The translations under genes and the position numbers were made by a program. A stretch of DNA of 47,330 bases from NCBI GenBank assembly GCA_024400505.1, contig JAKSMP010000015.1, positions 1 to 47,330 of the forward strand, in the 5' to 3' direction. Below are positions 4,382 through 47,330 of this stretch, piece after piece; positions within the stretch are counted from its first letter, which is position 1, and each line of letters starts with the position of its first letter. The notes beneath the pieces are model-generated. The model was given only the letters and a program-made list of their open reading frames with translations, searched no databases and had not been told where the DNA came from. This DNA is from Bacteroidales bacterium. GTDB lineage: Bacteria > Bacteroidota > Bacteroidia > Bacteroidales > P3.

Positions 4382-4831
4382 ATGAGTTTAAATAATCTCA
4401 AACCCGCAGAAGGTTCCATTAAGCATTCCAAACGTATCGGCCGTGGCGCTGGTTCTGGTAAAGGCGGTACTTCCACTCGTGGTAATAAGGGTGCTAAAGC
4501 TCGTTCGGGTTATCACCAGAAAATCGGTTTTGAAGGTGGCCAGATGCCTATCTATCGCCGTCTTCCTAAGTTTGGTTTCACTAACATCAACCGTGTTGAG
4601 TATGTAGGTATCAACATCGATACTCTCAATGCCCTCGCTGAAGCTAAAAACATCGTAGATTTCAATGTTGAGGTTTTCAAGCAGAATGGTCTGATCTCCG
4701 GTAAGGATCGTATAAAGATTCTTGGTCGTGGTGAGCTCAACAAGACTGTCAACGTTACTGCTCACGCTTTCAGTGCTACTGCTAAGCAGGCTATTGAAGC
4801 TAAAGGTGGCGTTGCTACTGTAATTGAATAA
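4382..4831 (+). CDS. rplO: 50S ribosomal protein L15
   Basis: A 149-residue late-assembly protein of the 50S subunit. The Gly/Lys-rich N-terminus (KRIGRGAGSGKGGTSTRGNK, about 17-36) and the motif GFEGGQMPIYRRLPKFGF are diagnostic. It is separated from secY by a 98-bp spacer filled with an unusual inverted repeat (see separate entry). Confidence 0.98.
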   Translation: MSLNNLKPAEGSIKHSKRIGRGAGSGKGGTSTRGNKGAKARSGYHQKIGFEGGQMPIYRRLPKFGFTNINRVEYVGINIDTLNALAEAKNIVDFNVEVFKQNGLISGKDRIKILGRGELNKTVNVTAHAFSATAKQAIEAKGGVATVIE

Positions 4832-4909
4832 AGTTAATGAAGTTGATGGAGTTTGCAAGGCTTTATGCTTTTCAAGCTTCATAAACTTCATTTACTCCAT
4901 CAACTTCAA
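4831..4909 (+). repeat. 9-nt-period inverted repeat between rplO and secY
   Basis: The left arm is AAGTTAATG, AAGTTGATG, GAGTTTGCA in tandem from 4831; the right arm, from 4874, is AAGCTTCAT, AAACTTCAT, TTACTCCAT, CAACTTCAA. The arms are mutually complementary: 4839-4852 pairs perfectly over 14 bp with 4894-4907, loop 41 nt. No U-tract follows, so it does not look like a simple terminator. It may form an mRNA hairpin inside the spc transcript that sets secY expression or stability; role unknown. Confidence 0.8.
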
Positions 4910-4929
4910 AAACTATTAAATTTAACTAT

Positions 4930-6288
4930 ATGAAGAGATTAATACAGACACTCAAAAACATCTGGTCTATTGAAGACTTGCGTAAGAGAATCCTTTACAC
5001 TTTAGGTTTGATTTTAGTGTACCGCATTGGTTGTTATATCGTTCTCCCTGGTGTTGATCCTTCTCAACTGCAAAACCTTCAGAGCCAAGGTGCTGATGGT
5101 TTGATGGGTCTGTTGAACATGTTCTCCGGTGGCGCATTCTCCAATGCTTCTATTTTTGCTTTGGGTATCATGCCTTATATTACTGCTTCCATCGTGATCC
5201 AGTTGTTTGTCATGGTTATCCCTTATTTCCAGAAAATGCAGCATGATGGTGAGAATGGTCGTAGGAAGATGAACCAAATCACACGTCTTCTTACTGTCGC
5301 CATCACTTGCTTCCAAGCTCCCGCTTATATCACCAATATGATGTATCAGCTTGGCGCATCTTCTACCGCTATTTACCCCTTTGACGGTTCTGCTCCCACT
5401 TGGACTTTTTGGGCTTCTAGCATCATTATCCTGACTGCTGGTACTCTTTTTGTTATGTGGCTTGGTGAGCGTATTACTGAAAAGGGCGTAGGTAATGGTA
5501 TTTCTTTGTTGATTATGATTGGTATTATCGCTCGTCTGCCCTTCGCTTTATTTGGAGAATTTGTATCTCGTTTGGCTGAAGCTGGCGGTGGTATGGTGAT
5601 GTTCCTTATTGAAATTGTTGTCCTGCTCGCTGTAATTCTCCTAGTTATTTTGCTGGTACAGGGTACCCGTCGTATTCCTGTTCAGTATGCAAAGCGTATT
5701 ATGGGTAATAGACAATATGGTGGACAGCGCAATTGGATTCCTATTAAGGTCAATGCAGCTGGTGTTATGCCTATCATTTTCGCTCAGGCAATTATGTTTA
5801 TCCCCATTACTTTGATGAGTTTTACTGGAAACTCTGATAGTAAGTTTATGATGGCTTTCGCAGATTATAATGGTTTTTGGTATAACCTGGTTTTCTTTAT
5901 CCTGGTTGTTCTGTTTACTTATTTCTACACTGCTATTGCCATCAATCCTAATCAGATGGCTGAAGATATGAAAAAGAATGGTGGCTTTATTCCTGGTGTT
6001 AAGCCTGGTAAAAAGACTGCTGAGTATCTTGATGATATCCTTTCTCGTGTTACTCTTCCTGGTTCATTCTTTTTGGCTATCGTTGCTATTTTGCCTGCAA
6101 TTATTAGATTGGCAAATGTTAATTCCCAGTTTGCTCAATTTTATGGTGGTACTTCTCTTCTCATCTTGGTTGGTGTCATTCTTGATACCTTGCAGCAAAT
6201 TGAGAGCCATCTTTTGATGCGTCATTACGACGGTCTTACTAAATCTGGTCGAATCAAAGGTCGTACTTCAATGTCTATTCAGGCATAA
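4930..6288 (+). CDS. secY: Preprotein translocase subunit SecY
   Basis: A 452-residue polytopic inner-membrane protein with about ten hydrophobic segments, the pore of the SecYEG translocon. Family motifs include YRIGCYIVLPGVDP (about 31-44), the plug-region and TM2 segment with FALGIMPYITASIVIQL (about 76-92), GGQRNWIPIKVNAAGVMPIIFA and IRLANVNSQFAQFYGGTSLLI. Length is normal. Eleven bases separate it from map, as in other Bacteroidota. Confidence 0.98.
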   Translation: MKRLIQTLKNIWSIEDLRKRILYTLGLILVYRIGCYIVLPGVDPSQLQNLQSQGADGLMGLLNMFSGGAFSNASIFALGIMPYITASIVIQLFVMVIPYFQKMQHDGENGRRKMNQITRLLTVAITCFQAPAYITNMMYQLGASSTAIYPFDGSAPTWTFWASSIIILTAGTLFVMWLGERITEKGVGNGISLLIMIGIIARLPFALFGEFVSRLAEAGGGMVMFLIEIVVLLAVILLVILLVQGTRRIPVQYAKRIMGNRQYGGQRNWIPIKVNAAGVMPIIFAQAIMFIPITLMSFTGNSDSKFMMAFADYNGFWYNLVFFILVVLFTYFYTAIAINPNQMAEDMKKNGGFIPGVKPGKKTAEYLDDILSRVTLPGSFFLAIVAILPAIIRLANVNSQFAQFYGGTSLLILVGVILDTLQQIESHLLMRHYDGLTKSGRIKGRTSMSIQA

Positions 6289-6299
6289 TTTTTTGGAAC

Positions 6300-7070
6300 A
6301 TGATCCTCTTAAAGACTCAAGAAGAAATCGAACTGATACGTGACGCTGCCCGCCTCGTCGGCAAATCTCTCGCCGAGGTGGGCCGTCATATCCGTCCAGG
6401 TGTCACGACTGCTTATCTTGATAAAATTGGAGAGCAGTTTATACGCGACAATGGTGGTATCCCTTTGTGTAAAGGTTATGAAGGTTTCCCTTCTGCTTTT
6501 TGCATTTCTGTGAATGATGTCGTTGTTCATGGTATTCCTAGTAATGATGTTTTTATTAAGGACGGGGACAACGTTTCTCTTGATGTGGTTGTTGAGTTGA
6601 ACGGTTACTGCGGTGACTCTGCTTATACTTTCACCTGCGGAGAATCTACCTCTGAAATGCAGCGTCTTCTTAAGACTACCAAAGAGGCTCTATATATTGG
6701 CCTTGACAAGTGTAAGGCAGGTAATCGTATTGGCGACATTGGAAGTGCCATTCAGATGCATTGCGAGAAAAATGGATATTCCATTGTTCGTGAGCTCTGT
6801 GGTCACGGTGTTGGCATTAAGATGCATGAAAGCCCTAATGTTCCAAACTACGGCGTTAAAGGTACCGGTCCTCTGCTGAAAGAAGGCATGGTTATTGCCG
6901 TTGAACCGATGGTTTGCATGGGCTCCAAAAATGTTAAGTTCTCGAAAGAGGACGGTTGGACTTGCCGTACTAGAGACGGTAAACCTGCAGCGCACTTTGA
7001 GCATACTGTTGCTATAACTAGTAATGGTCCAGACATCCTATCCACATTCGATTTTATTGAAAACCTCTAA
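6300..7070 (+). CDS. map: Methionine aminopeptidase, type I
   Basis: A 256-residue cytoplasmic metalloprotease that removes the initiator methionine from nascent proteins. The expected metal ligands are visible: Asp in SLDVVVELNGYCGDSAYTF (two Asp), His in GHGVGIKMHE, Glu in VIAVEPMV and Glu in AHFEHTVAIT. There is no N-terminal SH3-like extension and no insertion, which makes it type I. Located between secY and infA, a conserved placing that couples N-terminal processing to ribosome synthesis. Confidence 0.97.
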   Translation: MILLKTQEEIELIRDAARLVGKSLAEVGRHIRPGVTTAYLDKIGEQFIRDNGGIPLCKGYEGFPSAFCISVNDVVVHGIPSNDVFIKDGDNVSLDVVVELNGYCGDSAYTFTCGESTSEMQRLLKTTKEALYIGLDKCKAGNRIGDIGSAIQMHCEKNGYSIVRELCGHGVGIKMHESPNVPNYGVKGTGPLLKEGMVIAVEPMVCMGSKNVKFSKEDGWTCRTRDGKPAAHFEHTVAITSNGPDILSTFDFIENL

Positions 7071-7080
7071 TTAGAATTTT

Positions 7081-7299
7081 ATGGCTAAGCAATCTTCAAT
7101 ACAACTGGACGGTACCGTAACTGAATCTTTGGGTAATGCAATGTTTCGTGTAGAGTTAGAAAATGGTCATCAGATTATTGCTCATATTTCTGGCAAGATG
7201 CGTATGCATTATATTAAGATTCTTCCTGGTGATAAGGTTTCAATTGAAATGTCACCTTATGATTTAACCAAGGGGCGTATCACTTATCGCCATAAATAA
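7081..7299 (+). CDS. infA: Translation initiation factor IF-1
   Basis: A 72-residue OB-fold protein that occupies the A site of the 30S subunit during initiation. The N-terminal [13 protein letters not shown] and the motifs [20 protein letters not shown] and [20 protein letters not shown] are unmistakable. It starts 10 bp after map and is followed by rpmJ. Confidence 0.98.
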
Positions 7300-7357
7300 G
7301 TCGTTTGTGGCTGTTAATATCGTGTTGAAAAGAATTTATTTGAAAAAATACTAAAAA

Positions 7358-7474
7358 ATGAAAGTAAGAGTTTCTGTAAAGAAAAGATCCCCCGAGTGCA
7401 AGGTGGTTCGTCGCCACGGGGTTGTCTATGTAATTAACAAGAAGAATCCAAAGTTTAAACAAAGACAAGGATAA
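7358..7474 (+). CDS. rpmJ: 50S ribosomal protein L36 (zinc-ligand-poor form)
   Basis: A 38-residue protein starting [15 protein letters not shown] and ending NPKFKQRQG, the smallest protein of the 50S subunit. Canonical L36 binds zinc through three Cys and one His; here only Cys14 remains, and the other ligand positions are Ser11, Asn27 and Phe33. This ligand-poor form is usual in Bacteroidota. Place between infA and rpsM is canonical. Confidence 0.95.
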
Positions 7475-9085: not shown

Positions 9086-10078
9086 ATGGCAATTTTATCT
9101 TTCCAGAAACCCGACAAGGTGGTTATGCTTGAAGCCAACGACTTCCGCGGAACCTTTGAGTTCCGTCCTTTGGAGCCTGGTTATGGCATCACCATCGGTA
9201 ATGCATTGCGTCGAGTTCTCTTATCTTCTTTGGAGGGCTTCGCAATCACTTCTGTTCGTATTGACGGCGTTGCTCACGAATTCTCTTCTCTTCCTGGTGT
9301 CGTTGAAGATATGACGGACATCATTCTCAAGTTGAAGCAAATTCGTTTCCGTCGTCAGATTGAAGATTATGATTCTGAAAAGGTGGCTTTCACTATCCTC
9401 GGCCAAAGTGAATTTAAGGCTGGTGATTTGAATAATTACCTTAATGGTTTCCAAGTCCTCAATCCCGAACTGGAGATTTGTCATATGGAGACTACTACCG
9501 AACTTAAGATTGAACTCACTATCGAAAAGGGACGTGGTTATGTTCCTGCCGACGAGAACAAAAAGCCGGGTGATGCTATCGGTGTCATTTCTATCGATTC
9601 TATTCATACTCCTATTAAGAATGTTAAATACGAAGTTGCAGACTGTCGTGTTGAGCAGCGTACCGACTATGAAAAATTGATTTTTGATATCCAGACCGAT
9701 GGCTCTATCCATCCGAAAGAGGCCTTGAAAGAGGCTGCCACCATTCTCATCCAGCATTTCATGCTCTTTAGTGATGAGCGCATTACTCTTGAAGCCGAAC
9801 CTAAGCCTGTTCAGGAAGAATTTGACGAAAGTACTATGCATCTTCGTCAGATGTTGAAGACTAAATTGGTTGATATGGATCTTAGCGTCCGTGCGCTCAA
9901 TTGTTTAAAAGCTGCAGAGGTGGAAACTCTGGGTGACCTGGTTGCCTTCAATAAAGCTGATTTGTTGAAGTTCCGCAACTTCGGTAAGAAATCCTTAACC
10001 GAGTTAGAAAACTTGGTAGCTTCCAAGAATCTTGAATTCGGTATGAACATTACAAAGTATAAATTAGATAAAGAATAA
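9086..10078 (+). CDS. rpoA: DNA-directed RNA polymerase subunit alpha
   Basis: A 330-residue protein. The N-terminal assembly domain shows [20 protein letters not shown] (about 33-52); the C-terminal domain, which contacts promoter DNA and activators, has the helix-hairpin-helix pattern [20 protein letters not shown] and [15 protein letters not shown]. It dimerises to nucleate core RNA polymerase. Position between rpsD and rplQ is the standard alpha operon. Confidence 0.98.
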
Positions 10079-10652: not shown

Positions 10653-11954
<1,302 letters not shown>

Positions 11955-39666: not shown

Positions 39667-41124
39667 ATGCAATACGAAGCAACATTCAATGCCATTGACA
39701 AGATTCTGCGCCAAGAGGCGGGATGCAGCAATGAGCTGGACTATATCGAGCAGACCACCTGGATCCTTTTCCTCAAATACCTCGACGACCTGGAGTCCGA
39801 CCTCGAGGTGGCAGCCCAGTTCGAGGGCAAGGAATACCGCCGTGTGGTCACAGGCTTCAACCGCTGGAGTGCCTGGGCAGCCCCCAAAACCGCCACTGGC
39901 GAGCTCGACGTGGTCAACGCCATGACGGGCGACGACCTCGTGCAGTTTGTCAACCAAACGCTCTTCCCCTCCCTCGCCAAGTTCAAGTCCCAGGCCGCCA
40001 ACTCCCGCACCTTGGAGTACAAGATAGGCGAAATCTTCTCGGAGCTGCGCAACAAGATACAGAGCGGCTACAACCTGCGCGAGGTCATCAACAAGATCGA
40101 CTCGCTCCACTTCCAGTCGGCCGACGACAAGCACGAGATGACCGTCCTCTACGAAAGCCGCATCCAGCGCATGGGCAATGCTGGCCGCAACGGCGGCGAG
40201 TACTACACCCCGCGCCCCCTGATTCAAGCCATCGTGCAGGTGGTCAACCCCCGCATCGGCGAATCGGTCTATGACCCCGCCTGCGGCTCGGCCGGCTTCC
40301 TCTGCGAGGCCTACAACTACATGCAGGCCCAAGTCAGTAGCACCAACGACAGCCAAACCCTTCAAGAGAAAACCTTCTTGGGCAAAGAGAAAAAGCCCCT
40401 GCCCTACATCATCGCCACCATGAACATGATCTTTCACGGCGTGGCAGCCCCCAACATCATCCGTGGCAACACCCTCGCCGAGAACCTCAACGGCGTGATG
40501 GAGAAAGACCGCCACCATGTGATCCTCGCCAATCCTCCCTTTGGTGGCAGCGAGCGTGCCGAGGTGCAGCAGAACTTCGATATCCGATCCTCCGAGACGG
40601 CCTACATGTTCATGCAGCACTTCGTCAAGATGCTCAAAGTGGGTGGCCGTGCCGGCATCGTCATCAAGAACACCTTCCTCTCCAACGGCGATGCGTTGGC
40701 CTTAAGGAAGATGCTGCTCGAAGAGTGCAACCTCCACACCATCCTCGACCTGCCCAGCGGCGTGTTCACCGGTGCGGGAGTCAAGACCGTGGTGCTCTTC
40801 TTCGACAAAGGCACGCCCACCGAGCAGATATGGTACTACCAGCTCAACCCCGGCCGCAACCTCGGCAAGACCAACGCCCTCAACCCCCAGGACATGGAAG
40901 AGTTCCTGCGCCTGCAGAAGACCCGAGCCGAAGGCCCCAACAGCTGGCTCCTCGATGTCAAGACCCTCGACGAAACCTACGACCTCTCCGTCAAGAACCC
41001 CAACAAGGTGGAGGTGAAGGATGAGAGAACGGCAAAGGAGATTGCCGAAGGTCTGGTAGAGTTGAATGCGGAGAATGCAAACGTACTTGATGAATTATTG
41101 AGCCAACTGAATACGCTTGATTAA
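39667..41124 (+). CDS. hsdM: Type I restriction-modification system, methyltransferase subunit
   Basis: A 485-residue N6-adenine methyltransferase. HsdM N-terminal domain (about 1-130), then GEYYTPRPL (177-185), SAM motif I DPACGSAGF (203-211), catalytic motif IV NPPF (289-292). With HsdS it forms the modification enzyme that methylates an adenine in each half of a bipartite site. Strong GC-rich third positions separate it from the ribosomal genes. The GxxExxY gene and a repeat spacer lie between it and hsdS, an unusual interruption. Confidence 0.97.
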   Translation: MQYEATFNAIDKILRQEAGCSNELDYIEQTTWILFLKYLDDLESDLEVAAQFEGKEYRRVVTGFNRWSAWAAPKTATGELDVVNAMTGDDLVQFVNQTLFPSLAKFKSQAANSRTLEYKIGEIFSELRNKIQSGYNLREVINKIDSLHFQSADDKHEMTVLYESRIQRMGNAGRNGGEYYTPRPLIQAIVQVVNPRIGESVYDPACGSAGFLCEAYNYMQAQVSSTNDSQTLQEKTFLGKEKKPLPYIIATMNMIFHGVAAPNIIRGNTLAENLNGVMEKDRHHVILANPPFGGSERAEVQQNFDIRSSETAYMFMQHFVKMLKVGGRAGIVIKNTFLSNGDALALRKMLLEECNLHTILDLPSGVFTGAGVKTVVLFFDKGTPTEQIWYYQLNPGRNLGKTNALNPQDMEEFLRLQKTRAEGPNSWLLDVKTLDETYDLSVKNPNKVEVKDERTAKEIAEGLVELNAENANVLDELLSQLNTLD

Positions 41125-41142
41125 TAATTGCACCACACAGCC

Positions 41143-41550
41143 ATGAAAGACATATCAAAAGATGTAATAGGAGCTGCCATTGAAGTCCATAAGGAGTTAG
41201 GACCCGGTCTGCTGGAACGTATATACGAAAGGGCGCTAGTCCACGAATTGCAGCTGCGAGGACACTCCGTCACTCAGCAAGGCAGAGTGCCCATTATGTA
41301 CAAAGGTGTTGACTTGGCTAGTGACGACACAGCCGAGAATGCGCTCCGCTACGACCTAGTGGTGGACGACTGCTTGGTTGTAGAGCTAAAGTCGGTAGAG
41401 CAGCTGAAGCCTGTCCACTTCAAACAAGTAAAGACCTATTTGAAGTTGTTGAATATCCCAATAGGGTTGTTGTTCAACTTCAATGTTTCAAGAATTATGC
41501 CTGATGGCTTTGGCCGTGTGGTGTTAGGATTTGAAGAAAAAGACAATTAA
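41143..41550 (+). CDS. GxxExxY family protein (PD-(D/E)XK-like nuclease fold)
   Basis: A 135-residue protein from ATG 41143; a TTG at 41128 would add five residues. The defining motif GLLERIY (GxxExxY) is near residues 22-28, and a PDDEXK-like core DLVVDDCLVVELKS follows at about 76-89, with Asp and the E-L-K triad. The family is widespread in Bacteroidota and cyanobacteria and predicted to be a nuclease; biochemical function is unknown. It sits inside the hsd operon, 18 bp after hsdM. Its codon use is less GC-rich than hsdM, which suggests insertion. Confidence 0.9.
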   Translation: MKDISKDVIGAAIEVHKELGPGLLERIYERALVHELQLRGHSVTQQGRVPIMYKGVDLASDDTAENALRYDLVVDDCLVVELKSVEQLKPVHFKQVKTYLKLLNIPIGLLFNFNVSRIMPDGFGRVVLGFEEKDN

Positions 41551-41553
41551 AAG

Positions 41554-41787
41554 CCTCCCGCGAAGGATAAGAGAGTAAAAGGCTTGCGCAGCATGAAGAG
41601 TGTGGCACAACTGTGCCACAAGAGCGCAAAGGCTGCCGCCCGCAAGCGCACCAAAAGGGTTGCGTAGCACTTCACCCCTTGTGGCAGTCCTGCCACCACC
41701 TTCGCGAGAAAAAAACGACAAATAAACCTCCCGCGAAGGATAAAAGAGTAAAATGGCTGCCGCCAAACTTTTAACCTTTTACTCTTT
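41554..41787 (+). repeat. Palindrome-rich spacer between the GxxExxY gene and hsdS
   Basis: Contains a direct repeat of CCTCCCGCGAAGGAT (41554 and 41727, continuing AAGAGAGTAAAA and AAAAGAGTAAAA), a perfect palindrome TGTGGCACA-AC-TGTGCCACA (41601-41620), GTGGCAG-TC-CTGCCAC (41681-41696), and an inverted repeat AAAGAGTAAAA/TTTTACTCTTT (41743-41753 and 41777-41787). No transposase is present. It resembles a REP-like or mini-element of unknown origin. Confidence 0.8.
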
Positions 41788-41808
41788 GCGGGGAATAAAT
41801 AAAGTAGA

Positions 41809-42831
41809 ATGAATATAAAGGACATCTGCGCCAAAGGCTCATCTTCCCTCAAACAGAAAGATGTTGAGGGGAAAAGTGGTCAATACCCTGTTTTTGGGGC
41901 TAGTGGCTTAATTGGCCATATTGGTACTTATCACCAAGACAAAGAGTATATTGCCATTGTTAAAGATGGGTCTGGTATTGGCCGAACAGCTTTCTATCCT
42001 GCCAAGTCCTCTGTCATTGGCACAATGCAGTATATTCTACCGAAAGAAGGCTTTAATATTAGATATGTAGGTTACTGCTTGCAGAGTTTGGATTTAGCCA
42101 AGTATAAGCAAGGTGCTGCTATCCCTCACATCTACTTCAAAGATTATGGCGAAAGAGAAGTTAATGTTACTACCGATGAACATGAGCAGCAAAAAATAGT
42201 AGATTATCTCGACAATGCCTTTGCGAAGATAGACCAGTTGAAGGCCAATGCTGAGAAACAATTGGAGGATGCCCAGTCCCTCTTCTCCGCCGCCCTCGAA
42301 GAAGCTATGTCTCCTAAAGAGGGGTGGATCATTGGAAAATTGGGGGATTTTATAAATTTCCGTAGAGGCCATGATTTGACCCATAATCAAATGAAGTGTG
42401 GCAAATTTCCAGTTGCTGGATCAAGCGGCATAATTGGATATCACAATGAAGAGACTCCTATACATCCATGTATAACGATAGGTCGAAGTGGAAGCGTAGG
42501 AAAAATATTTATTTATGATAGATGTTGGGCTCACAATACAACACTATATGTTGATGACTATAAAGGGAATAATCCTTATTTCTTGAAATATCTAATTGAA
42601 AATTTGCATTTAGGTGAATTCCATGGAGGTTCTGCTGTACCCACCCTTAATCGAAACAATCTTCATCCGATACAAACAGCAGTACCTTGCTCCCTCCCCG
42701 AGCAGCAATCCATCGTCTCCCACCTCGACGCCCTTTCCGCCAAGGTGAACCAACTGAAAGAAAATTATAAAACCATCCTCTCCGAGTGCGACGCCCTCAA
42801 GCAAGCCCTCCTGAGAGAAGTGTTTGAATAA
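41809..42831 (+). CDS. hsdS: Type I restriction-modification system, specificity subunit
   Basis: A 340-residue protein with two target-recognition domains. TRD1 (about 1-120, GYPVFGASG-like QYPVFGASGLIG, IAIVKDGSGIGR) is followed by a central helical repeat (EHEQQKIVDYLDNAFAKIDQL), then TRD2 (about 168-295, GGSAVPTLNRNNL) and a second helical arm (LPEQQSIVSHLDALSAKVNQL). The helical arms are GC-rich and the TRDs AT-rich. HsdS reads the DNA site and holds HsdM and HsdR together. The start is near the start of TRD1, with little N-terminal leader. Confidence 0.95.
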   Translation: MNIKDICAKGSSSLKQKDVEGKSGQYPVFGASGLIGHIGTYHQDKEYIAIVKDGSGIGRTAFYPAKSSVIGTMQYILPKEGFNIRYVGYCLQSLDLAKYKQGAAIPHIYFKDYGEREVNVTTDEHEQQKIVDYLDNAFAKIDQLKANAEKQLEDAQSLFSAALEEAMSPKEGWIIGKLGDFINFRRGHDLTHNQMKCGKFPVAGSSGIIGYHNEETPIHPCITIGRSGSVGKIFIYDRCWAHNTTLYVDDYKGNNPYFLKYLIENLHLGEFHGGSAVPTLNRNNLHPIQTAVPCSLPEQQSIVSHLDALSAKVNQLKENYKTILSECDALKQALLREVFE

Positions 42832-42851
42832 CCCAAAAACCCGTATCTACT

Positions 42852-43067
42852 ATGAGCAATGTTATCTATTGCAAACTAAGTCATAACAATGGCCAATGCA
42901 CTGTCAAAACCAGTCAGCACGGTTTAGATATGCTCCCATTTCGTGACACCACCGAACTCCGCTGGAACGACACAGACCTTCTCACCGCGATGAACCGCCT
43001 AGGCGAATACGACTGGCATTTGGTGCTGAAGGATGGCGACGACTATATCTTTAGTACCAGCTACTAG
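42852..43067 (+). CDS. 71-residue protein of unknown function in the hsd island
   Basis: Starts MSNVIYCKLSHNNGQCTV and ends DDYIFSTSY; Trp-, Tyr- and Asp-rich, soluble, no signal or membrane segment. No recognised domain. It lies 20 bp after hsdS and about 40 bp before the promoter of the ATPase gene, so it belongs to the hsd transcript rather than to the ATPase pair. It could be an HsdS accessory or an anti-toxin; no direct evidence. Confidence 0.6.
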   Translation: MSNVIYCKLSHNNGQCTVKTSQHGLDMLPFRDTTELRWNDTDLLTAMNRLGEYDWHLVLKDGDDYIFSTSY

Positions 43068-43107
43068 CCCTTCTCCAACTTTTTCCTCGCAATCTCAAAA
43101 AAAATCG

Positions 43108-43115
43108 TATCTTTG
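43108..43115 (+). promoter_or_regulatory. -7 promoter box of the ATPase/PIN pair
   Basis: TATCTTTG, 22 bases before ATG 43138; no -33 TTTG at usual spacing. It lets the pair be expressed separately from hsdMS. Confidence 0.7.
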
Positions 43116-43137
43116 CAAAAAATTAATTTGTAGCAAA

Positions 43138-44319
43138 ATGATTGAAGAAATCACACTTACCAATTGGAAAAGTTTCGGGCAATCAAAACTGTATATCGAA
43201 CCACTGACATTTGTAATCGGATACAACGCCAGTGGCAAATCTAATATACTGGATGCTATGGACTATCTGTCACAAGTTTCCAATGGCTCGTCCCTGTCTG
43301 ATGCCGCAAAAGCAATCAGAGGCGGTGACGGTTGGGTGGTCAAGGAAGGCGAAAACCAGGCAGCCCTAGGTGTCAAAGCTTACGACGAGGATAACAAAAT
43401 CTACTATGATTATTGCATTTCTTTCGACGCCCAATTTCAGATTGTTGACGAATACCTAACACGCACACTTTCTCAGAACAACAGAGAATACACAAAGGAC
43501 CTTTTCAAGTTAGGTAAGACTCCTTCCGAAACCGACGCTTCGTTTTCCGTTTCCCTGCCAGGCAGAAAACCTGTCGATCTCGACCGGCGCAAGTCTGCCT
43601 TATTCCAGTTGGGCATGACTAAGCTACAAAAAGATGTGGAAGAGGGTATCGGCTTTGTTCTGGGCCTTCTCCGCAAAATATTCATCCTAGACCCCATCCC
43701 CGGGAAGATGCGCGATTACTCTACTTTTGAGCAGAATTTGTCAAAAGACGCTTCGAATATCGCAGGTGTGATTGCCGGCAAAGAAGCAGAAGAAAAATTC
43801 TTGCTCGAGAAACGCATTGCCGAGATAGTCCGCCCCCTGCCCGAAAGAGATATCATGGCTGTATGGGCCGAAACTGTTGGAACCTTCAAAAAGGACGCTA
43901 TACTATGCTGCAAGGAACAGTGGACCGAAGGAGCTGAGGGAATGTTGCTCGATGCCCGTGGCATGTCGGACGGCACGTTGCGTTTCATCGCCATCGTGAC
44001 AGCCTTGCTGACCCTGCCTGCCGGCACCTTGCTACTGGTTGAAGAAGTGGACAACGGCCTCCATCCATCCCGCTCCAACGAGCTGGTGCGCGCATTAAGG
44101 AGCCTCGGCAAAGAACGCGGCATTGATGTGGTTTGCACCACCCACAACCCTTACCTCATCGACACGTTGGGCCCTGATATGATATCGCGCATAAGCTATG
44201 TGCGCCGTAACCATCAAAATGGGTCAAGCGAAATAATTCCGCTCGACGAGCATGAAAACCTACTAAAACTGATGGCCAATGGCAGCATAGGCACCTCTAT
44301 GGCAGAAGGGAGGATATGA
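43138..44319 (+). CDS. RecF/SMC-like ABC-type ATPase of the restriction island
   Basis: A 393-residue protein from ATG 43138; upstream codons to 43033 overlap the promoter and the 71-residue gene. The AAA_21/RecF-type nucleotide-binding head is split: Walker A GYNASGKS (28-35), ABC signature-like SDGTLRF (277-283), Walker B LLLVEEVD (298-305, Glu302/Glu303) and H-loop His336 in CTTHNPYLID. A helical middle segment (about 120-260) lacks a long coiled coil. It is coupled to the PIN-like gene by an ATGA overlap. Similar ATPases sense phage or DNA signals in two-gene defence systems with a nuclease partner. Confidence 0.9.
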   Translation: MIEEITLTNWKSFGQSKLYIEPLTFVIGYNASGKSNILDAMDYLSQVSNGSSLSDAAKAIRGGDGWVVKEGENQAALGVKAYDEDNKIYYDYCISFDAQFQIVDEYLTRTLSQNNREYTKDLFKLGKTPSETDASFSVSLPGRKPVDLDRRKSALFQLGMTKLQKDVEEGIGFVLGLLRKIFILDPIPGKMRDYSTFEQNLSKDASNIAGVIAGKEAEEKFLLEKRIAEIVRPLPERDIMAVWAETVGTFKKDAILCCKEQWTEGAEGMLLDARGMSDGTLRFIAIVTALLTLPAGTLLLVEEVDNGLHPSRSNELVRALRSLGKERGIDVVCTTHNPYLIDTLGPDMISRISYVRRNHQNGSSEIIPLDEHENLLKLMANGSIGTSMAEGRI

Positions 44320-44840
44320 TTATGATGCAGAAGAAAAAAGTGATTATCCTCGACACCTCGGTACTCTGCGTATGGATTCAGGTGCCTGGAAAAGAGGTGG
44401 CAGGGAAAGAGGGGTTTATCAACAAAGAGTACGTCGATAAACACATTAAGGAAGAGATAGAAAAGGGTGCTCAATTGGTATTGCCGCTGACCACCCTGAT
44501 AGAAACGGGCAATTTCATAGCCCACACCAAGACTGGCAACCGCCAGCCATCCATCGGCCAAATGGTGGATATCATAAACCGTGTGGCCGATGGCACCACT
44601 CCCTGGCTTACGCTTGATAGCCAAAGCCATTTGCTAAAAGGCGAGGCCTTGAAAAGTCTGGCTGCCGATTGGAGCAATACCGTCATCAACGAAGACCAAT
44701 CCATAGGCGATGCTGCCATTGTGAAAGTGGCCGAATATATGGCTCTTAATTTCGAAGTGGAAATTTTCACAGGCGATGGCGGATTAAAGAACTATGAATA
44801 CAAAATAGCAGGACAGCAGTTGCGTAGAAACAGAAAGTAA
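44316..44840 (+). CDS. PIN-like nuclease-domain protein
   Basis: A 174-residue protein beginning MIMMQKKKVIILDTSV. Four acidic residues fit the PIN active site: Asp13 (ILDTSV), Glu63 (LIETGNF), Asp132 (SIGDAAI) and Asp154 (FTGDGGL). PIN domains are metal-dependent RNases, as in VapC toxins, or structure-specific nucleases. No antitoxin-like gene is adjacent; instead the ATPase precedes it with a 4-bp overlap, so the ATPase probably controls its activity. ATGs at 44322 and 44325 are alternative starts. Confidence 0.88.
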   Translation: MIMMQKKKVIILDTSVLCVWIQVPGKEVAGKEGFINKEYVDKHIKEEIEKGAQLVLPLTTLIETGNFIAHTKTGNRQPSIGQMVDIINRVADGTTPWLTLDSQSHLLKGEALKSLAADWSNTVINEDQSIGDAAIVKVAEYMALNFEVEIFTGDGGLKNYEYKIAGQQLRRNRK

Positions 44841-44852
44841 CCATCCCCCCTT

Positions 44853-47282
44853 ATGAACGAAGCGCAGACAAGACACAGCAAGATTGATCCCAAGCTGTAC
44901 GCTGTGGGGTGGGACAGTGTGCCGAGCAGCAAGCTGCTTATGGAGCAGAGCGCCTATCAGATAGCCCCCGGCCGCGTGAGCCGCCTGGGCGGCAAGCCCA
45001 AGAAGGCCGACTATGTGCTCAGCTACCGTGGCCGCAAGCTGGCCATCGTCGAGGCCAAGAGCGACGAGCACGATGTGTCCGAGGGCGTGGCACAGGCCAA
45101 GCTCTACGCCCAGATGATGCAGATACGCTTCACCTTTGCCACCAACGGCGACGAGATATACAAGATTGACATGGGTGTGCAGGATGCCGACGGCAATTAC
45201 ATCTTCCCCAGCACCGAGGGGTTGGTGGATAAATTCCCCTCGCCCCAAGAACTGTGGCTGTGGACCTACCCCGACGAGCATGTGTGGCGCGACAAGTTTC
45301 TGCTGGAGCCTTTCAACACCGACGGCGGCCGCCAGCCACGCTACTACCAGGAGAACGCCGTGAACAACGTGCTCAACGCCATTGCCAACCAGCAGCGCCG
45401 CATACTCCTCACCATGGCCACTGGCACCGGCAAGACCTACACCGCTTTCCAGATATGCTGGAAACTGATGCGCACCAAGTGGAACAAGGACCTTGCCGAC
45501 AACCGCTCGCCCAAGATCCTCTTCATCACCGACCGCAACACCCTGGCCGACCAAGCCAAGAACGATTTTTCCAACTTTGCCGACGATGCCATGGTGCGCA
45601 TCACCCCCAAGGAACTGCACGGCAGCTGGGACAACCGTGTGCCCACCGCCCGCAGCTTGTACTTTGGCATCTTCCAAACCTTTATGAGCCGCGACAATAC
45701 GGGCATGGCATTTTATATGCAGTACCCCAAGAACTTCTTCGACTTTATCATCATCGACGAGTGCCACCGCGGCGGCGCCAACGACGAGAGCCAATGGCGC
45801 GAGCTGATGGACTACTTTGCCGATGCCTACCAGCTGGGCATGACCGCCACCCCCCGCAAGGTGGAGAACGCCAACACCTACAAGTATTTCGGCCGCCCGG
45901 TATATACCTATTCGCTCAAGCAGGGCATTGCTGACGGCTATCTGGTGCCTTTCCGAGTAAAAATATCGGAGAGCAACATCGACACCTACCGCTATCGCGA
46001 CGGCGACCAATACACCGGCGATATGGACATGGAGAAGGAATACACCGAGCAAGACTTCTACAACGGCAACATCCAAATCAAGGAGCGCGACGAGCACCGT
46101 GTGGTGGAATTCCTCAACCAGATGGACCCCAACGAGAAGACCATTGTCTTTTGCGCCACCCAGCAACATGCCGCCATCATACGCGACATGATCAACCAGC
46201 ACAAGCGCAGCCCCCACCCCGACTACTGCAAGCGCGTGACTGCCGACGACAACGCCGAAGGCGAACACCAGCTGCGCCTGTTCCAAAACAACGACAAGCA
46301 GATACCCACCATACTCACCACCAGCCAGAAACTGAGCACCGGCGTGGATGCCCGCAATGTGCGCAACATAGTGCTGATGCGGCCCATCAACTCCATCGTG
46401 GAGTTCAAGCAGATCATAGGCCGCGGCACCCGCATCTTCGACGAGAAGTATTACTTTACCATCTACGACTTTGTGGGAGCCAACGCCCGCTTTGAGGATG
46501 CCGAGTGGGACGGCGACCCCATCTGCCCCCAGTGCGGCAACTGGCCCTGCACCTGCCACAAGGTGGTGGAATACCCACCCATCGACCAAGGCGGCGGCCA
46601 TGTGAGCGAGCCCGAACCCTGCCCGGTGTGTGGCAACCTGCCCTGCACCTGCCTCACTCCCCCGCATAGGCGAAAGGTGGTGGTGAAACTGTCGGAAGAG
46701 CGTGCCCTGCATCTCCACACCGACTGGAGCGAGAAGATAGAATACGGCGACCGCATGCTGACGGTGGATGAATTTATCCAAGAGGTGTTTGGCAAGATGC
46801 CCCGGCTGTTTTCGGGCAAGGACGATTTGCGCAAGCGGTGGTCCAACCCCCAGTCGCGCAATGAATTGCTGGAGATGCTCAAGAGCGAGGGGTTCGGCCT
46901 GCCGATATTGGAGATGGTGTCGAAGATATTGCAGATGGAGAAAGCCGACTTGCTGGATGTGCTGGAATACATAGCCTACAACACCCCCGCCATGGAGCGT
47001 GCCGAGCGTGCGCAGCAGGTGCGCGACACCTGGCTGAAGACCCTGCCGCTGCGCCAGCAGGAGTTTTTCGACTTTATCTTGCAGTACTACACCAACAACG
47101 GCTACACCGAATTGGGCGACGACCGGCTGGGCGTTTTTGTAAACATCAAGTACGGCAATTCGCCTACCGACGCGTTGCGGTTGATGGGGCTGACCGTTGC
47201 CGAACTGCGTGACAAATACTTGCTGATGCAGGTGAACCTCTACGACAGTCTGCACGTGCATGGCAATTATATCGAAAATTAG
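44853..47282 (+). CDS. hsdR: Type I restriction-modification system, restriction subunit
   Basis: An 809-residue protein of the EcoAI/EcoEI (type IB) size class. N-terminal PD-(D/E)XK nuclease: Asp53, Glu67-x-Lys69 and QxxxY (Gln81-Tyr85). Translocase motifs: Walker A ATGTGKT (189-195), DECH (302-305), TATP (331-334) and QIIGRGTRI (520-528). Two copies of CPxCGNxPCTC (Cys558-568 and Cys590-600) lie between the motor and the C-terminal domain, a possible zinc ribbon not expected in E. coli relatives. It lies 12 bp after the PIN-like gene. Confidence 0.96.
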   Translation: MNEAQTRHSKIDPKLYAVGWDSVPSSKLLMEQSAYQIAPGRVSRLGGKPKKADYVLSYRGRKLAIVEAKSDEHDVSEGVAQAKLYAQMMQIRFTFATNGDEIYKIDMGVQDADGNYIFPSTEGLVDKFPSPQELWLWTYPDEHVWRDKFLLEPFNTDGGRQPRYYQENAVNNVLNAIANQQRRILLTMATGTGKTYTAFQICWKLMRTKWNKDLADNRSPKILFITDRNTLADQAKNDFSNFADDAMVRITPKELHGSWDNRVPTARSLYFGIFQTFMSRDNTGMAFYMQYPKNFFDFIIIDECHRGGANDESQWRELMDYFADAYQLGMTATPRKVENANTYKYFGRPVYTYSLKQGIADGYLVPFRVKISESNIDTYRYRDGDQYTGDMDMEKEYTEQDFYNGNIQIKERDEHRVVEFLNQMDPNEKTIVFCATQQHAAIIRDMINQHKRSPHPDYCKRVTADDNAEGEHQLRLFQNNDKQIPTILTTSQKLSTGVDARNVRNIVLMRPINSIVEFKQIIGRGTRIFDEKYYFTIYDFVGANARFEDAEWDGDPICPQCGNWPCTCHKVVEYPPIDQGGGHVSEPEPCPVCGNLPCTCLTPPHRRKVVVKLSEERALHLHTDWSEKIEYGDRMLTVDEFIQEVFGKMPRLFSGKDDLRKRWSNPQSRNELLEMLKSEGFGLPILEMVSKILQMEKADLLDVLEYIAYNTPAMERAERAQQVRDTWLKTLPLRQQEFFDFILQYYTNNGYTELGDDRLGVFVNIKYGNSPTDALRLMGLTVAELRDKYLLMQVNLYDSLHVHGNYIEN

Positions 47283-47330
47283 TACTGATGCGATAAAATC
47301 GCACTGTTATTAAAATTCATCAAATAAAGT
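47283..47330. other. Short tail after hsdR
   Basis: 48 bases follow the hsdR stop. A small hairpin GCGAT/ATCGC (about 47288-47300) is present but no T-run follows, so it is not a convincing terminator. Confidence 0.3.

Follow-up and report, generated by a model that had tools for sequence, protein, structure and literature searches.

PrrC and RloC are anticodon nucleases in which an ATPase part and an RNase are joined in one fused protein. According to the available parts of the papers cited here, the nuclease of PrrC is of the HEPN type (PMC12409363) and prrC can be found inside a type I locus (PMC12707154). In PARIS, the ABC ATPase AriA sequesters AriB, and Ocr or other phage proteins cause the release of AriB, whereupon tRNA is cut (PMC12409363). 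Septu (PtuA and PtuB) and WonAB are likewise dyads of an ABC ATPase and a nuclease, and in WonAB an OLD-like ATPase is combined with a protein of restriction-enzyme fold (PMC12137116). In a 2026 survey, OLD-ABC ATPases paired with HNH, PD-(D/E)XK or PIN nucleases were described for 594 taxa that have BREX or related loci, and were termed a backup layer against phage counter-defence (PMC12839542). VapC-like PIN ribonucleases act on tRNA (PMC12409363). Ocr, a DNA mimic, is an inhibitor of restriction and of BREX alike (PMC7261183; PMC12839542). Lastly, PADLOC-DB 2.0 contains a phage defence candidate with genes A and B, PDC-M07.

The locus described here lies in a 47,330-nucleotide stretch of DNA from a Bacteroidales bacterium, which was analysed as a whole and is referred to as the window. 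An initial annotation, made from the sequence of the window, had proposed that an ATPase gene and a gene for a PIN-like nuclease in a type I restriction locus form a defence module. The open reading frames, their coordinates, the ATGA overlap of the two genes and their place between hsdS and hsdR are as it had claimed (Table 1).

Table 1. Features of the type I locus in the window, with the evidence for each assignment.
Feature	Position	Strand	Evidence
hsdM, type I methyltransferase (host locus)	39667..41124	+	PADLOC MTase_I 2.5e-149; Pfam N6_Mtase 3e-58
PDDEXK_3 family nuclease-like gene, hsdM-hsdS gap	41128..41550	+	Pfam PF13366 9e-37
hsdS, type I specificity subunit, 340 aa	41809..42831	+	PADLOC Specificity_I 1.2e-60; Pfam Methylase_S 1.6e-25
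71-aa ORF, first ORF in the near-identical block of about 2 kb	42852..43067	+	100% identical protein in L002/L026
TATCTTTG, possible Bacteroidota -7 promoter box	43108..43115	+	weak: motif common in window
ABC-type ATPase (AAA_21, OLD-like), PDC-M07A, 393 aa	43138..44319	+	PADLOC 6e-127; Pfam AAA_21 2.7e-30; invariant motifs
PIN-like nuclease, PDC-M07B, 174 aa; Asp13, Glu63, Asp132, Asp154	44316..44840	+	PADLOC 2.2e-39; conserved acids; PIN profile match
Patch with all 12 differences from the L002 PIN gene (97.7% identical), residues 23-49	44384..44460	+	DNA comparison
hsdR, type I restriction subunit	44853..47282	+	PADLOC REase_I 1.1e-126; Pfam ResIII, EcoEI_R_C

The ATPase motifs named in the initial annotation were all recovered, namely Walker A (GYNASGKSN), the signature SDGTLRF, Walker B (LLLVEEVDNG) and the H-loop (TTHNP), and their key residues (G28, N30, G33, K34, S277, D278, G279, T280, E303, D305 and H336) are invariant in 20 aligned ATPases. 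The PADLOC profile PDC-M07A matches residues 1-393 on profile positions 1-401 of 412, and the next other PADLOC family for this protein is HEC-01A (1.7e-33). At E-values up to 1, Pfam detected just AAA/SMC-type P-loop domains. A profile of the 20 ATPase homologues reached, among solved structures, PtuA (1.9e-10), SMC, an OLD-family nuclease, RecF and Rad50. The AbiLi model also matched (5e-29), as did the AriA model PDLC02980 (1e-29). The latter score was discarded as evidence for PARIS, because PDLC02980 is a model of 304 positions that resembles Pfam AAA_21 and other families score similarly.

For the small protein, the profile PDC-M07B aligns residues 5-162 with profile positions 2-150 of 154, and all six PDC-M07B models are matched by 21 of 21 aligned homologues. 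Glu63, Asp132 and Asp154 are kept in every one of these homologues and Asp13 in 20 of them. The four residues, which the initial annotation had pointed out, align with D, E, D and D/N in the VapC-type PIN profile. The single exception at Asp13 is the PIN of an Anabaena plasmid (L043, 8355-8834), which has Tyr at this position; its close relatives retain Asp. With Tyr substituting for the first catalytic Asp, this protein has a naturally changed active site. The window protein itself has no Pfam match at E-values up to 1, and at the same threshold PIN_12 was found in 7 of the 21 homologues (best 2.1e-4) and PIN in 6 (best 1.5e-3). When the 21 homologues were compared with 31 other PIN proteins by hhalign, a probability of 86 with an E-value of 5e-6 was obtained; the PF01850 (VapC-type) set alone gave 57 and 1e-4, and the PF16289 set alone gave 10 and 3e-3. 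These 31 proteins came from Pfam-guided searches and are the ones over the cut-off among 30 fetched loci for PF01850 (24 used) and 14 for PF16289 (7 used). The probability did not exceed 1.2% in any of 23 hhalign controls (20 column shuffles, two reversed alignments and the ATPase alignment), which were built from the single PIN sets and not from the combined 31-protein set. A search of the PIN profile against solved structures gave nothing credible, and no PIN was among the results. Judged by its profile matches and conserved acids, the small protein is a PIN-like nuclease, and this identity holds.

The PIN alignment has 21 rows and leaves aside L026 (the same contig as L002), L031 and L033 (near copies of L030 and L032), L037 (cut), L034 and L038 (broken), L039 and L046. 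The ATPase alignment has 20 rows and omits the same loci plus L036 (broken). Loci L049-L058 are absent from both.

By profile comparison the window pair is a member of PDC-M07: both proteins match nearly over their full length, they are encoded side by side, and no difference was found. Several other assignments were rejected. The 174-aa protein has no match at E-values up to 1 to AriB of PARIS or to the HNH protein PtuB of Septu, and AbiLi matches the ATPase of the window, yet its partner has no AbiLii match at the same threshold, which argues against AbiL/RloAB. Membership in PrrC was also discarded, given that the 393-aa ATPase has P-loop domains only (Pfam) and that the nuclease is a separate PIN-like protein. 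With PARIS, the window pair shares an ABC ATPase as presumed sensor, a separate small nuclease and possibly the kind of target (tRNA), but the effector of PARIS is a TOPRIM protein whereas that of the window is PIN-like. The effectors of Septu and WonAB likewise differ from PIN. PrrC and RloC resemble the window pair in combining an ATPase part with an RNase, and prrC shares with it the setting of a type I locus, but they are fused HEPN proteins while the window pair is split and of the PIN type. The OLD-ABC and PIN-endoRNase pairs of BREX loci have, as far as they can be compared by their description in the available parts of PMC12839542, the same pairing and a proposed backup role; they differ from the window copy in that it resides in a type I hsd locus, although two of its homologues do reside in BREX loci. 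The initial annotation had stated that no named system with such a pairing was known. This statement can no longer be maintained, as PADLOC names the pair PDC-M07 and OLD-ABC plus PIN pairs appear in the available parts of PMC12839542. The pair is already catalogued and the pairing is already in print; it is real but not new. In the literature that was covered, which leaves out preprints and most subscription papers, no functional test of PDC-M07 was found and the term itself is absent, nor was any phage challenge, toxicity or nuclease assay of the pair found in print.

The two genes were almost always found together. Among 72,556 plasmid records, 11 contain the ATPase (window query, E 1e-10), and the PIN was found in 2 with the window PIN as query (E 1e-3) and in 10 with the Photobacterium PIN (E 1e-4). 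All 10 PIN records are among the 11 ATPase records, with the genes side by side in each of the 10. On the eleventh ATPase plasmid, from Brasilonema, the downstream protein has no PIN motif and is not placed by Pfam. Searches in genomes gave 21 PIN places in total. Such places were seen in 5 of the 190 genomes searched for the window's family and, at the level of the phylum, in 14 of 395 (the window's own genome being included in both), in 4 of 195 relatives of one match, and in 9 of 65 genomes of one genus. An ATPase gene or a remnant of it adjoins the PIN gene in 20 of these 21 places, the exception being L021, a match of 7.7e-4. Broken or cut copies are L016/L034, L018/L036, L019/L037, L020/L038 and L055-L056/L058. 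In the viral collection the pair is present in three loci (L049 overlapping L050; L051; L052); a search of viral_contigs with a single ATPase query found no relatives, a search of phage records with the Photobacterium PIN gave no match, and no plasmid record matched the DNA of the cassette. The plasmids with the pair include a 9.1 kb Acinetobacter plasmid and a Segatella plasmid. The distance matrices of ATPase and PIN were correlated over 20 pairs with an r of 0.94, a value not reached in any of 5000 permutations. Thus, the ATPase and the PIN protein travel together as a closely paired mobile unit. The initial annotation had named three findings that would count against its proposal. Two of them, a lack of conservation of the acidic residues and a lack of recurrence of the pair, are contradicted by the homologue alignments and the pairing counts, whereas the third, an already named system, is what the PADLOC search returned with PDC-M07. 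One genome, G066, which is listed as 9% contaminated, has two copies of the pair, L026 inside an hsd locus and L024 elsewhere; the L024 proteins are 36% (ATPase) and 40% (PIN) identical to those of the window.

The genomic surroundings were compared for 29 distinct copies, that is, the window, 17 genome loci (L022-L038, with L002 on the same contig as L026), 8 plasmid loci (L040-L045, L047 and L048) and the 3 loci of the viral collection (L049 with L050, L051 and L052). Not counted among the 29 are L039 (without ATPase), L046 (other partner), L053 (a fourth locus of the viral collection, with a weak ATPase match), L057 and L058 (pair present, outside the hsd probe), and the plasmid records NC_016983.1 and CP070234.1. 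Four of the 29 copies occupy the hsdS-hsdR gap; they are those of the window, of the same-genus contig L002/L026, of Photobacterium pAQU1 and of Vibrio pIFL1_3. A second pAQU1-type record has the same placement, as judged from its search row. The recurrence of this position across genomes, which the initial annotation had suggested looking for, therefore extends to plasmids of distant bacteria. Two further copies have an hsd-like gene nearby. In L033, the downstream side has an N-terminal fragment of hsdM and a DUF1016 gene, beginning at a distance of about 1.2 kb, and an HsdR-like gene at 5.6 kb; on a Lactococcus plasmid, hsdS is located about 5 kb upstream of the pair. No hsd gene was detected in the fetched flanks of the remaining 23 of 29 copies by tblastn with two Hsd sets. 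This should be read as 'not detected', because several contigs, such as L034 (3.4 kb) and L023 (6 kb), are short and because tblastn with these sets can miss genes, the hsdM fragment of L033 having been found by Pfam alone. In a tree of 27 ATPases, which takes in L049, L051, L052, L057, L058, L031 and L033, the hsd copies of Bacteroidales and Vibrionales are separate and two changes are needed; a single clade of the hsd copies was rejected with a p-AU of 6.5e-5 in this set, which includes some long branches. The tree separation and the rejection of a single clade therefore indicate that the placement between hsdS and hsdR arose at least twice independently.

At least two copies are located in BREX loci. 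In L030, the pair has pglX (PADLOC E 0) on one side and, on the other, a GmrSD gene (Pfam 2.5e-36; PADLOC Orf5 2e-75 and HEC-06 2e-67), pglZ (3e-299) and brxL (2e-278), and by this gene content L030 is a BREX locus. L031 has pglX (79% over 1014 aa), a piece of pglZ (91% over 202 aa) and matches to NsnB, NsnC and a PtuA-like protein. A copy of the pglX codons 1121 to 1161-1166 (of 1173) follows the PIN gene in L030, L031 and L034. In L030 and L031, which also contain pglX itself, this is seen as DNA repeats of 115-125 bp with 85-93% identity (L030 9357-9470 versus 11308-11422; L031 3848-3972 versus 9246-9370), while the 3.4 kb contig of L034 has the pglX fragment only (1471-1608). This duplication of the pglX 3' end on the 3' side of the pair looks as if cargo inserts with a copy of the end of its target gene. 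The gap between hsdS and hsdR holds different genes in the loci of the two hsdR relatives nearest to that of the host (52-53% identity). In L061, a DUF1016/YhcG nuclease occupies the gap (4462-5619) and hsdS is seen as a 135-aa piece only; in L060, the gap encodes a 225-aa protein (6787-7461) with weak hints of a cysteine peptidase (best 0.02). The six remaining hsdR loci that were fetched (36-39%) have another arrangement and are not informative on this gap. In view of these other genes, the hsdS-hsdR gap looks like a general cargo slot. Near many copies of the pair no other defence gene was identified, most of their neighbours being outside the defence-library scan.

The window cassette is very similar to that of L002, with DNA identities of 99.1% for the ATPase gene, 97.7% for the PIN gene, 99.5% for the 71-aa ORF and 91.4% for the 70 bases between this ORF and the ATPase gene. 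The flanks are less similar, with 86.2% in the initial 1.7 kb of hsdR and 75.4% in the final 232 bases of hsdS. Therefore, either the block from about 42.8 to 44.88 kb has undergone exchange later than its flanks, or these have been replaced. The 12 differences in the PIN gene all fall within 77 bp, which was not seen in any of 20,000 random draws in a test that was chosen after seeing the cluster; this patch may possibly be a specificity patch or a small gene conversion. The GC content of hsdS and the front of the cassette (41.7-43.8 kb) is 0.40-0.47; it is about 0.5 in the remainder of the pair and for the most part 0.55-0.60 in hsdM and hsdR. Composition therefore does not single out the cassette. 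No convincing insertion-marking repeats were found around it. In L002, hsdM is split over two overlapping frames (140-1676), as if by a frameshift.

The PDDEXK_3 gene in the hsdM-hsdS gap is a second gene embedded in the same type I locus, and the L002 DNA does not align with this region (47-54% identity). A direct repeat of about 52 bp (87%) extends over 41533-41584, from the end of the PDDEXK_3 gene, and 41708-41758, before hsdS; the interval 41551-41808 has no further copy elsewhere in the window's 73%-complete assembly. The 71-aa ORF has no Pfam family at E-values up to 5 and, among 190 genomes of the family, no convincing relative beyond L002/L026, with two matches at 0.004-0.007. No RNA families were found in 41000-47330, and sigma-70-like promoters and terminators near the pair are no more frequent than in shuffled sequence. 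The initial annotation had also assigned the ATPase gene a -7 box of its own. The motif is indeed present: TATCTTTG, which we take to be a possible Bacteroidota -7 promoter box, starts 30 nt 5' of the ATPase gene. However, TANNTTTG is found 34 times on the plus strand of the window where about 16 occurrences are expected from base composition, and a -7-type box was present within 200 nt upstream in just 4 of 15 homologous loci, two of which represent the same cassette (window and L002). For these reasons a promoter belonging to the ATPase-PIN pair itself is plausible but finds no support across homologues.

We consider it rather probable that the pair is an autonomous, mobile abortive-infection module of an ATPase sensor and a PIN RNase, which settles in DNA-modification defence loci and is PARIS-like without being PARIS. 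PARIS is the best model for how the pair probably works, and we infer the defence role, the autonomy, the control of PIN by the ATPase, the RNA target and the trigger. The ATPase would be sensor and switch, and the PIN protein the effector. In a resting cell, the ATPase, probably as a dimer or a larger ring, would bind the PIN protein and hold it idle. A phage-derived signal would then alter the ATPase and so switch on the PIN protein, which would cut cellular RNA, with tRNA or rRNA as the most likely substrate, and would stop translation and infection. The hsd and BREX loci would be seats for the module, where it might serve as a second line when phages block the DNA-modification defences; a guard role in these loci is possible. 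Since the majority of copies have no detected hsd genes, the restriction enzyme is probably dispensable for the module. The initial annotation had offered an independent abortive-infection pair as its alternative, which agrees with the reading that we favour here and is, like it, conditional.

A somewhat unlikely proposal is that the pair acts as a general alarm for blocked DNA-modification immunity, the ATPase sensing phage DNA-mimic or other anti-restriction proteins that hit both type I enzymes and BREX, and releasing a PIN tRNase. Less probable still is a guard in the manner of PrrC, in which the ATPase would watch the type I complex, or a phage anti-restriction protein on it, and would unleash the PIN RNase once restriction is blocked. 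In its favour, there were at least two independent entries into the hsdS-hsdR gap (AU test of a single clade, p 6.5e-5), 3 of the 10 pair-bearing plasmid records have the pair in this gap (two of them fetched, one judged from its row), and the pair is also found in BREX loci, where the inhibition of both restriction and BREX by Ocr (PMC7261183; PMC12839542) would fit. Nevertheless, the absence of a detected hsd gene from the fetched flanks of 23 of 29 copies speaks against it, as do the quite different, cargo-like genes in the same gap of the two nearest hsdR relatives. An obligate guard of the type I enzyme was therefore rejected as the general role of the pair. The same counts, together with the copies in BREX loci and the at least two origins of the hsd placement, speak against the first proposal of the initial annotation, a split guard of the type I system.

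It is quite improbable that the pair serves toxin-antitoxin-like stabilisation of plasmids or islands instead of defence against phages, with PIN as toxin and the ATPase as antitoxin. The pair does occur on small plasmids, for example the one of 9.1 kb from Acinetobacter, and the profile match to VapC-type PINs would suit a toxin, but the placement inside hsd and BREX operons does not, and PIN is partnered by an OLD/PARIS/Septu-like ATPase and not by a small VapB-type protein. A DNA-cutting PIN in a DNA-targeting pair like WonAB appears very doubtful: the ATPase profile does reach PtuA, SMC, RecF and Rad50 and WonAB does pair an OLD-like ATPase with a restriction-enzyme fold (PMC12137116), but the PIN profile match is to the VapC type and PIN ribonucleases such as VapC act on tRNA (PMC12409363).

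PDC-M07 is a listed system, apparently untested in the literature that was covered, and it is closely paired, mobile and endowed with conserved PIN active-site residues. Its compact natural copies, on the Segatella and Acinetobacter plasmids and in two hsd-embedded lineages, suit a direct test of autonomy versus guarding. On the basis of few loci, the gaps between hsdS and hsdR and between pglX and pglZ may be regarded as exchangeable cargo slots, which would be useful for finding further defence genes. If the pair were indeed a general alarm for blocked DNA-modification immunity, it would represent a PIN-based, split counterpart of PrrC and PARIS, which hsd and BREX operons have captured repeatedly.
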